From an uncultured Clostridia bacterium (GTDB taxonomy: Bacteria; Bacillota; Clostridia; Oscillospirales; Acutalibacteraceae), in assembly GCA_946555465.1 (NCBI GenBank), contig CAMNST010000013.1, forward strand, positions 1 through 64,000: a stretch of 64,000 bases of DNA, read 5' to 3'. The translations under genes and the position numbers were made by a program. The notes under the pieces are model-generated. The model was not told the DNA's origin. It did no database searches and saw only the letters and a list, made by a program, of their open reading frames with translations. Below, piece after piece: positions 4,609 through 9,020 of this stretch; the stretch's first letter is position 1, and the number at the start of each line of letters is the position of its first letter.

Positions 4609-7600
4609 ATGAAAAAAATTATGTCAGTAATTATTTCACTGATAATGGTTTTCTCACTGAGTGTCGGTTCGGCATTCTCTGCATTTGCTGGTGAGAAAAT
4701 TTTCGGCGTTGACGTTTCTCAGTTTGACGGCGAAGTGAATTTTGTTGATGTAAAAAACAACAATAAAAACTTTGTAATGATAAGACTCGGCTGGTTCGGA
4801 ACATCATCGGGTGATCATGTTGATGACCGTTTCTGGCGTAATGTTAAAGAAGCATATGATGCAAAGTTAGACTTCGGCGTTTATCTTTACAGTTATGCTT
4901 TTAACGAAAAAGAGGCTAAGCAGGAGGCAGATTTTGTTATCAGAACTCTGTCTCAGATGGATGAGAAATATCTTGAATATTTCACTCTTCCCGTTGCTTA
5001 CGATATTGAAGACAGCACGATTGCACCATACGGCAAAACCCAGATTACCAAAAATATGGTTGCTTTCTGCAATGATATTAAAAATGCCGGTTATACCCCT
5101 ATGGTATATGCAAATGTAAACTGGTATGAAAACTATATTGATATCAATACTGCTGTTAAGAATAATTATAAAATCTGGTGCGCTTCATGGTATAATACCC
5201 CGAATCTCAGCCAGTCAAAATACACAATCGGAAACACAGGCGTTAATGCCGATATGTGGCAGTATACCGAGGGTGAAAATAACGCAAAAGATTTTGATGA
5301 AAATGTTATTTTCAATGCAGAAACTTTCGTTAAACCTCTGCACCACAGTGTAGGCACTGCCATTAAACCTGCCCATAACATTCATGTTGAAACAACACCT
5401 GCAACTCTTGAAAAAGACGGAACAATTATTACAAAATGCAGCGATTGTTCTTACGCTGTTACAGAAACAATTTACCGTCCGACAGGCATGAACCTCGGAA
5501 GAACTTCTTATGAATATACCGGTAAAGATATCGGACCGGGTGTAACTGTAACAGATGCGAGCGGCAAAAAACTTGTATATAAAACAGATTATACACTTAC
5601 CTATGCAGCAGGCAGAACCAATGTCGGCACATATGGTGTAACAATTAATTTTATCGGCAAGTATTCAGGTTCAAAAACTTTGTATTTTGATATTACTCCT
5701 AAAACTGCAGATAAATGCACAGCAAAATTGTCTGCAGAAGAATATGCTTATACCGGCAGTTCTATCGGACCTGGTGTAACCGTAACCGATGATACAGGCA
5801 GAAAACTTGTTTACAAAACAGATTATACGCTTACTTATGATCAGGGCAGAATTGAACCGGGAAGATATCAGATAAAGGTAAATTATCAGGGTAACTACAG
5901 CGGCTGGGATTTACTTTTCTTCACAATTAATGAGCCTGTTAAGGTGAATGCAAAACTCTCTGCAACATCCTATGTATACACAGGCAAGGATATCGGACCT
6001 GGTGTAACCGTAACCGATGAAAACGGCAAAAAACTTACGTATAAAACAGATTATACGCTTACCTATGCAGCAGGCAGAACAAATGTCGGCAGATATGGTA
6101 TAACCGTAAATTATATCGGTAAGTTTGCAGGAACACCAAGCGAAACACTCTATTTTGATATTACTGCAAAACCTGCATCACAGTGTACTGCAAAACTTTC
6201 AGCAACAGAGTACGCATATTCAGGCAAAGAAATCGGACCGGGCGTAAGCATTACTGATAACACAGGCAGAAAACTTGTTTACAGAACAGATTATACGCTT
6301 ACTTATGATCAGGGCAGAAAAGAGCCGGGCAGATATTCTGTAGTCGTTAACTATATTGGCAACTACAGCGGAACTCAGACGCTTTATTTCACAATTAAAG
6401 ACCCTGCTAAACTCACAGCAAAACTGTCTGCAACATCCTATGTATACACCGGCAAGGATATCGGACCTGGTGTAACCGTAACAGATGCAAACGGCAAAAA
6501 ACTTACGTATAAAACAGATTATACCCTTACTTATGCACAGGGCAGAACCAATGTCGGCAGATATGGTATAACCGTAAATTATATCGGTAAGTTTGCAGGA
6601 ACACCAAGCGAAACACTCTATTTTGATATTACTGCAAAACCTGCATCACAGTGTACTGCAAAACTTTCAGCAACAGAGTACGCATATTCAGGCAAAGAAA
6701 TCGGACCGGGCGTAAGCATTACTGATAACACAGGCAGAAAACTTGTTTACAGAACAGATTATACGCTTACTTATGATCAGGGCAGAAAAGAGCCGGGCAG
6801 ATATTCTGTAGTCGTTAACTATATCGGCAACTACAGCGGAACTCAGACGCTTTATTTCACAATTAAAGAACCTGCTAAACTCACAGCAAAACTCTCTGCA
6901 ACATCCTATGTATACAGCGGTAAAGATATCGGACCGGGTGTAACCGTAACAGATGAAAACGGCAAAAAACTTACTTATAAAACAGATTATACCCTTACCT
7001 ATGCAGCAGGCAGAACCAATGTCGGCAGATATGGTATAACCGTAAATTATATTGGTAAGTTTGCAGGAACACCAAGTGAAACACTCTATTTTGATATTAC
7101 TGCAAAACCTGCATCACAGTGTACTGCAAAACTTTCAGCAACAGAGTACGCATATTCAGGCAAAGAAATCGGACCGGGCGTAAGCATTACTGATAACACA
7201 GGCAGAAAACTTGTTTACAGAACAGATTATACGCTTACTTATGATCAGGGCAGAACAGAGATCGGCAGATATTCTGTAGTTGTTAACTATATTGGCAACT
7301 ACAGCGGAACAGAGACTTTGTATTTCAATATAAATGATCCTGCCAAACTCACAGCAAAACTTGCTGCAACATCTTATGTTTACAGCGGCAAGGATATCGG
7401 ACCTGCGGTAACCGTAACAGACGGTGCAGGCAAAAAACTTACTTATAAAATAGATTATACACTTACTTATGCACAGGGCAGAACAAATGTCGGCAGATAC
7501 GGTGTAACCGTAAATTACATCGGCAAATACAGTGCTGTTCCAAGTGAAACGCTTTATTTTGATATCACACCCAAATCTGCAGACAAATGCAGTGCAAAAC

Positions 7601-8379
7601 CATCTACATGGTCCTATTCCTATTATTACACAGGGGATTCGATTGGCCCCGGCATAACCGTAACGGATGATACCGGCAGAAAACTTGTTTATAAAACAGA
7701 TTATACCCTTGTTTATGAAGAAGGCAGAGTAGATGTAGGAAGATATTATATTAAGGTAAATTATCAGGGCAACTATACAGGCAGCCAGACAATTTATTTC
7801 TATATCATTCCGGGTAAGGGCCAGTTCAAATCTGTTCTTCCGCTTAACGAAGGCTTTATTGTAAATTGGTACAGCGGAGGCGGTGTAACACCTGAAAGCC
7901 AGATCAGCGGTTATCAGATTCAGTACAGCCGTTACAGCGATTTTTCAAATGCAGCAACCCTTACATTCGGCACTTCGGATGAAGATTACTTCTCAAGTTA
8001 TTCTACATCAAGATATAAAATGGGTTCAAAAGTAAAATACTATGTAAGAATCAGAACCTTTACAGACCTTGTGATTGACGGCAAGTCAACAACCCTTTTC
8101 TCAGGTTGGAGCGATGCCAAAAATGTTACAACCGCGGGCCCGGTAACAAAAGCGTGTCCAAACAACAGTCACAGTATGGTAACAGGCAATTCCGGCAAGT
8201 GGTTCAACAGCCTCGGTGAAGCAGATATTTATGCTAATGAGGTGGCTCAATATTGGGGCAATCTCTATGAGAGCGGCGAAATAACATGGGAAGAATATAC
8301 GGAAAACTGTCCTTACGGATATGAGGCATGGTCTTGCCGTGACTGCGAAAAGTGGACCATAAATTTCAAATACGATTAA
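4609..8379 (+). CDS. Secreted GH25 lysozyme/muramidase with ten tandem C-terminal modules, Fn3-like segment and Cys-containing C-terminal domain
   Basis: Signal peptide MKKIMSVIISLIMVFSLSVGSAFSAFAG; GH25 motif FGVDVSQFDGEVNFVDVKNNNKNFVMIRLG; repeated IGPGVTVTD..GKKLTYKTDYTLTY..GRTNVGRYGITVNYIG. Confidence 0.88.
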   Translation: MKKIMSVIISLIMVFSLSVGSAFSAFAGEKIFGVDVSQFDGEVNFVDVKNNNKNFVMIRLGWFGTSSGDHVDDRFWRNVKEAYDAKLDFGVYLYSYAFNEKEAKQEADFVIRTLSQMDEKYLEYFTLPVAYDIEDSTIAPYGKTQITKNMVAFCNDIKNAGYTPMVYANVNWYENYIDINTAVKNNYKIWCASWYNTPNLSQSKYTIGNTGVNADMWQYTEGENNAKDFDENVIFNAETFVKPLHHSVGTAIKPAHNIHVETTPATLEKDGTIITKCSDCSYAVTETIYRPTGMNLGRTSYEYTGKDIGPGVTVTDASGKKLVYKTDYTLTYAAGRTNVGTYGVTINFIGKYSGSKTLYFDITPKTADKCTAKLSAEEYAYTGSSIGPGVTVTDDTGRKLVYKTDYTLTYDQGRIEPGRYQIKVNYQGNYSGWDLLFFTINEPVKVNAKLSATSYVYTGKDIGPGVTVTDENGKKLTYKTDYTLTYAAGRTNVGRYGITVNYIGKFAGTPSETLYFDITAKPASQCTAKLSATEYAYSGKEIGPGVSITDNTGRKLVYRTDYTLTYDQGRKEPGRYSVVVNYIGNYSGTQTLYFTIKDPAKLTAKLSATSYVYTGKDIGPGVTVTDANGKKLTYKTDYTLTYAQGRTNVGRYGITVNYIGKFAGTPSETLYFDITAKPASQCTAKLSATEYAYSGKEIGPGVSITDNTGRKLVYRTDYTLTYDQGRKEPGRYSVVVNYIGNYSGTQTLYFTIKEPAKLTAKLSATSYVYSGKDIGPGVTVTDENGKKLTYKTDYTLTYAAGRTNVGRYGITVNYIGKFAGTPSETLYFDITAKPASQCTAKLSATEYAYSGKEIGPGVSITDNTGRKLVYRTDYTLTYDQGRTEIGRYSVVVNYIGNYSGTETLYFNINDPAKLTAKLAATSYVYSGKDIGPAVTVTDGAGKKLTYKIDYTLTYAQGRTNVGRYGVTVNYIGKYSAVPSETLYFDITPKSADKCSAKPSTWSYSYYYTGDSIGPGITVTDDTGRKLVYKTDYTLVYEEGRVDVGRYYIKVNYQGNYTGSQTIYFYIIPGKGQFKSVLPLNEGFIVNWYSGGGVTPESQISGYQIQYSRYSDFSNAATLTFGTSDEDYFSSYSTSRYKMGSKVKYYVRIRTFTDLVIDGKSTTLFSGWSDAKNVTTAGPVTKACPNNSHSMVTGNSGKWFNSLGEADIYANEVAQYWGNLYESGEITWEEYTENCPYGYEAWSCRDCEKWTINFKYD
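5488..7811 (+). repeat. Ten tandem ~78-aa protein modules, alternating A/B types; central 468-bp higher-order DNA repeat
   Basis: A-B pairs start at 5947, 6415, 6883 and 7351, each 468 bp apart; long identical stretches at DNA level. Confidence 0.9.
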
Positions 8380-8523: not shown

Positions 8524-8799
8524 CTATTTTTTCAGCATATGCTGCATATGTAAATAGCATTTGTCGGAAAATGCGGTCAGTTCTTCCGTGTAATCCAGCG
8601 CATCTTCGATTGCCATACAGAGCAGGTCGTAGTTTTTGTTGTTATACGCCTCAAGTTCAACACAGCACCCCTGCAGAACATTCAGCAGTTCAATTTTGTT
8701 GGAGAGAATCTCCAGCCTGTCGTTCAGTTGATTGTGCATTTTGAAAAATTCATGCAAATCTTTGCCCTCAATGTCATACGAATACGTTTTTTCAGTCAT
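8524..8799 (-). CDS. Hypothetical 92-aa protein, predicted mostly helical
   Basis: MTEKTYSYDIEGKDLHEFF...; minus-strand RBS aagggggtc upstream of ATG at 8799; the listed upstream start (8847) lies inside a terminator hairpin. Confidence 0.6.
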   Translation of the reverse strand: MTEKTYSYDIEGKDLHEFFKMHNQLNDRLEILSNKIELLNVLQGCCVELEAYNNKNYDLLCMAIEDALDYTEELTAFSDKCYLHMQHMLKK

Positions 8800-8820
8800 T
8801 TTTATGACCCCCTTAAAAAT

Positions 8821-8847
8821 AAAAAATGCGCAGCCGAAGCCGCGCAT
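8821..8847 (-). terminator. Intrinsic terminator in the leader of the small gene (possible attenuator)
   Basis: Minus strand: AUGCGC-GGC-UUCG-GCU-GCGCAU-UUUUU. Confidence 0.8.
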
Positions 8848-8864
8848 AAAAATGCATGACTCCG

Positions 8865-8990
8865 TTAGCCGCGAAGCAAATTAAATAACACATCTTAATA
8901 AATAAGCACGTGAAATAAGAGCATGCATTTTTTACAAAATAAAAACACGTGCTTTAATTATAAGATGTATTTAATTCACTTCGCAACTAA
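8865..8990 (-). ncRNA. Candidate structured RNA/leader: long imperfect palindrome
   Basis: gcgaag (8871-8876)/cttcgc (8979-8984); aagcacgtg (8904-8912)/cacgtgctt (8946-8954); intervening AT arms also largely complementary; lies between a minus-strand promoter and terminator. Confidence 0.5.
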
Positions 8991-8991
8991 A

Positions 8992-9020
8992 AATATAACA
9001 TAGATATGCAGTGTTGTCAA
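8992..9020 (-). promoter_or_regulatory. Sigma-A type promoter firing into the palindromic region
   Basis: Minus strand TTGACA (9020-9015), 17-nt spacer, TATATT (8997-8992). Confidence 0.7.

Follow-up and report, generated by a model that had tools for sequence, protein, structure and literature searches.

The segment upstream of a small gene on the minus strand of the window (the whole 64,000-nt stretch of DNA analysed here) probably encodes a leader RNA, conserved and acting in cis, with the function of a pseudoknot-gated transcription attenuator, as judged from comparison of its many copies. The leader family appears to be a conserved RNA switch that is new to Rfam and widespread in gut Clostridia.

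Organization of the locus

Re-reading of the sequence located the promoter, the long imperfect hairpin, the loop-tail complementarity and the UUCG terminator where the initial annotation had placed them, and likewise the ribosome-binding site and ATG that follow (Table 1). The 11-nt loop-tail match described there is present but extends in fact to AAAAAUGCAUGCUC and GGAGUCAUGCAUUUUU, with one bulged base, and the downstream ORF has 91 codons instead of the 92 aa attributed to it. By count alone, matches to the promoter are at chance level (2 found, 2.0 expected); a TTGACT-17-TATAAT-like promoter recurs across the copies of the RNA. In the source genome the terminator of the preceding gene often has the promoter right behind its U tract, for example at loci L009, L013 and L023. 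Elsewhere in the window, a GH25 lysozyme domain and repeated MBG domains occur in a 1256-aa protein encoded at positions 4609-8379 of the plus strand.

Table 1. Features of the locus at 8524-9020. R1 is the covariance model described in the text.
Feature	Position	Strand	Remarks
Promoter TTGACA-N17-TATATT, TG before the -10 box	8992..9020	-	layout recurs upstream of other copies
Promoter boxes	TTGACA 9020-9015; 17-nt spacer; TATATT 8997-8992	-	
Leader RNA, about 165 nt up to the terminator end	8821..8987	-	one R1 match; fold -61.5 kcal/mol, z = -7.2 against shuffled sequence
Imperfect hairpin, 118 nt	8987-8870	-	outer gcgaag/cttcgc, inner aagcacgtg/cacgtgctt
Outer stem P1, 5' arm	8961..8987	-	two arms of one copy pair far better than arms taken from different copies
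Outer stem P1, 3' arm	8870..8897	-	covariation and fold
Inner stem, 5' arm aagcacgtg	8946..8954	-	covariation and fold
Inner stem, 3' arm cacgtgctt	8904..8912	-	covariation and fold
Apical loop segment AAAAAUGCAUGCUC, pseudoknot strand 1	8919..8932	-	covaries with the tail
Tail GGAGUCAUGCAUUUUU, pseudoknot strand 2; 5' part also antiterminator strand	8848..8863	-	
Core loop-tail match	loop AAAAAUGCAUG 8932-8922; complement CAUGCAUUUUU 8858-8848	-	
Intrinsic terminator hairpin, 9 bp, UUCG loop	8826..8847	-	U tract then runs to 8821
Shine-Dalgarno AAGGGGG	8808..8814	-	read in the sequence
Putative controlled gene, 91-aa protein with a predicted two-helix fold	8524..8799	-	ATG 8799; 13-14 copies in the genome

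Copy number and distribution of the RNA family

A BLAST search with 200 nt returned 35 places in the source genome, 30 of which were used to build a covariance model, R1, whose structure includes the pseudoknot helix. With this model, at least 34 copies were found in the source genome, and 65 of the 80 genus genomes scanned had one copy or more; the leader at 8821..8987 (-) scored 133 bits by cmsearch, the same copy being a member of the set from which R1 was built. Several contigs begin or end at or near the RNA and the 91-aa gene, namely L015, L029, L027 and L016 (contigs C2, C12, C11 and C23) and L046 (C14), so the true copy number in this genome may exceed 34. Half-elements that keep the 3' half alone, starting near AAAAYRCATGCTC, were also observed (L014:3051-3161, L018, L027 and L032), some of them apparently fused to upstream T runs.

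A second model, R2, with the outer stem, the inner stem and the terminator in its structure and the pseudoknot left out, matched 110 of 300 genomes of the family, 102 of 297 of the order and 78 of 292 of the class; about ten candidates were scored per genome in these scans, and the copy numbers that they give are lower bounds. The RNA family occurred in 61 of the 148 genera in the order sample and in many other families of the class, which we infer to be Clostridia, and R2 found no member of it in the sampled genomes outside this class. Among named records, the core motif occurs mostly in MAGs from rumen and gut that bear the labels Eubacterium, Ruminococcaceae, Oscillospiraceae or Clostridia, and also in Clostridium sp. 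CAG:217.

Covariation of the stems, the terminator and the pseudoknot

Covariation, which the initial annotation had proposed as a check, was strong for the outer stem, the inner stem, the terminator and the loop-tail pseudoknot. In an alignment of 112 genus copies fitted to R1, a model that contains the pseudoknot, these four helices jointly had 96.3% of their cells paired, with 287 cells changed on both sides compared to 62 in shuffles, and shifting the partners by one to three columns abolished the pairing signal. Double changes were found at 8 of the 9 terminator pairs and in 6 of the 13 pairs of the pseudoknot helix, which was 96.9% paired in this R1-fitted alignment. Because the fit had included the pseudoknot helix, the test of the latter was repeated on 144 copies aligned by MAFFT without such a fit, where its key pair was GC in 111 copies, AU in 22, GU in 8, A-C in 1 and gapped in 2 (Fisher test on the four letter combinations, 3.5e-18, which is not a strict probability as the sequences are related). 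In the same 144 copies the loop-tail duplex had a mean energy of -15.7 kcal/mol with its own tails against -13.5 kcal/mol with tails permuted among copies (z = -14.6), and a z of -6.7 was obtained for 51 distant copies found by the pseudoknot-free model. These permutation values treat the copies as independent though they are related; the changes recur in separate genera.

The arms of the stem behaved in the same way when exchanged between copies, with energies of -38 kcal/mol for own arms against -18 kcal/mol for swapped ones in the genus copies (where loop and tail boundaries were rough, some of them wrong, and 12 copies, including that at 8821-8987, were skipped), and of -44 against -22 kcal/mol in the 51 distant copies. 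On the other hand, covariation of the apical U5/A5 hairpin was hardly above chance. The sole conserved element without a full pairing explanation is AAUA[U/A/C], present in 73% of the copies, the shuffled value of 35% referring to the slightly narrower pattern AAUA[U/A]; our best candidate for a sensor or protein site is this AAUAU segment, located in the 5' strand of the stem.

Similar palindromes are indeed dispersed in the genome, a finding that the initial annotation had equated with a MITE. A mobile, MITE-like palindrome without RNA function would explain dozens of such copies in one genome and the coincidence of some of them with contig ends, yet it is very improbable here, for the loop and the tail covary, the copies are oriented toward genes and the family is spread over a bacterial class. 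Among the paralogous loci of the source genome, moreover, the terminator, the Shine-Dalgarno sequence and the ORF are 84-95% identical, and the stretch between terminator and start codon is 90% identical, whereas the identity of the hairpin arms (0.58-0.65) is close to the flank background (0.59). Terminal repeats are therefore not conserved between copies, and the MITE was rejected: the arms are conserved less than any other part and nonetheless pair in each copy, which, together with the consistent orientation and the class-wide spread, identifies the palindromes as a multi-copy RNA class. Arms that vary freely between copies with near-identical genes and yet stay paired offer a natural example, and a clean one, of selection that acts solely on structure.

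Proposed attenuation mechanism

Transcription from the sigma-A-type promoter would produce an RNA of about 165 nt with a long hairpin, the arms of which could change as long as pairing is kept. Its apical loop, AAAAAUGCAUGCUC, is complementary to a putatively single-stranded tail, GGAGC-AUGCGUUUUU, located just 5' of the UUCG terminator. If the loop captured the tail, the resulting pseudoknot would preclude the antiterminator, the terminator would form and transcription would end before the gene. If the pseudoknot were prevented or too slow, the tail would be free to pair with the terminator's apex and 5' half (CAGUUGGAGC : GCUUCGGCUG), so that the terminator would be blocked and the gene transcribed. 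Antiterminator and pseudoknot should compete because both use GGAGC, and the pseudoknot should favour termination (OFF) because it takes the antiterminator strand; from this we infer the ON/OFF assignment. A signal would act on the pseudoknot.

As expected for an attenuator, an intrinsic terminator lies between promoter and start codon. An alternative pairing that excludes the terminator is indicated by energy: in 122 of 144 genus copies and 46 of 51 distant copies, the antiterminator has the lowest energy of all pseudoknot-free folds computed for the tail together with the terminator. Covariation of the antiterminator is modest (11 double-change cells against 4.2 in shuffles, 89% paired), in a tail that the pseudoknot also constrains.

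Genes downstream of the RNA

The proposal that a loop-tail pseudoknot controls the terminator of a cis-regulatory leader is supported both by the covariation described above and by the position of the RNA before varied genes in other species. An ORF with a Shine-Dalgarno-like motif was found downstream of 91 of the 114 copies from other species of the genus (about 80%), by simple rules on start codon, Shine-Dalgarno-like motif and length, and it mostly starts about 15-25 nt past the terminator. Products that recur behind the RNA include BspA-type leucine-rich repeat (LRR) proteins, fn3 and PIN7 proteins, subtilases, zinc ribbons, AMP-binding proteins and DUF6809. Of the 99 products with 150 aa or more, 66 had a crude secretion signal, compared to 48 of 160 neighbouring ORFs. 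A class-wide leader that reaches dozens of copies in some genomes would mark out a regulon with many surface and secreted proteins, carried by uncultured gut and rumen Clostridia, with the leader as a candidate new ligand- or protein-sensing switch.

Alternatively, the terminated RNA of about 165 nt could be the main product, a stable trans-acting small RNA to which the downstream gene is incidental. Its promoter and terminator are both strong, tandem and gene-less copies exist in the source genome and in genomes G149, G154, G178 and G220, and gene-less copies of the source genome bear antisense to the shared tail. We nevertheless regard this explanation as unlikely: most copies in other species have an ORF a short way downstream, the PIN7 and LRR_5 families recur behind the RNA as cis control predicts, and a stand-alone RNA does not need the antiterminator overlap. 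No obvious ORF follows about 20% of the copies elsewhere and many of those in the source genome, and some of these gene-less copies may function as stand-alone RNAs.

The 91-aa protein

In the source genome, 13 copies of the RNA precede the 91-aa gene, of which there are 13-14 copies in all. The gene, taken at first for an orphan, is one of about 14 paralogues within the genome, all standing behind the RNA as far as the contigs let this be seen, and a dN/dS of about 0.16 indicates purifying selection. A plain two-helix hairpin is predicted for the protein. No family and no RNA-binding domain were recognised in Pfam, NCBIfam and PHROGs scans; comparison with the PDB gave generic matches, none below E 0.001, and a look-up in GTDB contigs gave no match. 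The family was absent from all others of 150 sampled genomes of the bacterial family. One further RNA copy of the source genome (L031) precedes a 186-aa DUF6809-type protein, a stretch of which is distantly like the 91-aa protein (27% identity, E 5e-4).

As a sub-case of attenuation that names the sensor, a regulatory protein, perhaps the 91-aa helical protein in the source genome, might bind the stem or loop and set the pseudoknot. The conserved unpaired bases show no obvious small-molecule pocket, and the 91-aa family is under purifying selection behind the RNA, both of which fit a protein; we consider this variant doubtful all the same, given a candidate without a recognised RNA-binding domain and found in no other of the 150 sampled genomes, whereas the RNA is class-wide. 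For the latter reason the 91-aa family cannot be the general regulator and was rejected as such.

Comparison with known systems

No Rfam 15 family reached its gathering threshold in the window, and searches of six further loci with E up to 0.1 gave no match to the leader RNA, in agreement with its having been placed outside the known riboswitch classes. Some riboswitches use terminator/antiterminator platforms, an example being preQ1-I, which has a loop-tail pseudoknot. The leader RNA resembles this type in its leader position, intrinsic terminator, overlapping antiterminator and loop-tail pseudoknot, and differs in having no Rfam riboswitch match, a long stem of unconserved sequence, no recognised ligand pocket and a mixed regulon in which surface and secreted proteins are frequent. 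T-box leaders are, like it, attenuators common in Clostridia, but the T-box model RF00230 does not match the leader RNA while finding a T-box elsewhere in L031. This T-box leader, at L031:4829-5023 (-) with 103.7 bits, lies on a contig stretch shared with one RNA copy.

In type III toxin-antitoxin (ToxI) systems a promoter, a structured RNA, a terminator and a small gene follow one another, the RNAs being sometimes in tandem. The leader locus has the same order; in contrast, unrelated genes stand behind the RNA in other species, and no ToxN/CptN/TenpN-type toxin was recognised in the 91-aa protein by the Pfam, NCBIfam and PHROGs scans. The MRSC-65-2 motif consists of one long stem that covaries and is often found dozens of times in a genome; it is described as a likely selfish repeat of diverse phyla that is sometimes near transposases (PMC11109978); compared by description alone, it shares the long covarying stem and the multiple copies with the leader RNA. 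A matching motif was not found in the texts of the structured-RNA surveys PMC8632094, PMC11109978 and PMC2864571, and an earlier description may exist elsewhere, e.g. in the 2017 study of 224 motifs.

Antisense tails of gene-less copies

A sorting script identified 13 copies in the source genome with neither the 91-aa gene nor a further promoter close behind, of which 11 loci were kept, leaving out L027 (cut by the contig end) and L031 (before the DUF6809 gene). Within about 120 nt downstream, each of the 11 has a segment that is complementary to the consensus tail and forms a predicted duplex of between -22.4 and -36.0 kcal/mol; when these downstream stretches were shuffled (30 times each), the mean was about -16.5 and the per-locus minima were -21.1 to -24.8 kcal/mol. 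Ten loci were stronger than every shuffle of their own, and L025 (-22.4) did not pass its shuffle minimum of -23.5. The 13 gene-bearing loci fell inside their own shuffle range, except for L013 (-23.7 against -21.2), where the site lies over 360 nt downstream. Ten of the 11 antisense segments paired on average more strongly with the tails of gene-bearing loci than with that of their own copy (in L024 by less than 1 kcal/mol), in a comparison that favours gene-bearing copies as the search consensus is close to their tails.

Tentatively, the leader family may form a self-wired RNA network in this lineage, in which read-through of gene-less copies would yield an antisense (consensus CGCAUGCUCCAACUGUCGCCAAA) to the tail of gene-bearing copies and terminate them in trans. 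Termination would follow because binding blocks the antiterminator and the pseudoknot strand alike, and the gene-less copies would escape their own product because their tails have mostly diverged. With their antisense tails, the gene-less copies would permit a direct test of whether one leader controls another in trans. In an ungapped scan, ranks 1-8 were all loci of the source genome (8/8) and one copy from another genome, L073, lay above the shuffle maximum, a ranking which suggests that the antisense tail is mainly a feature of this lineage.
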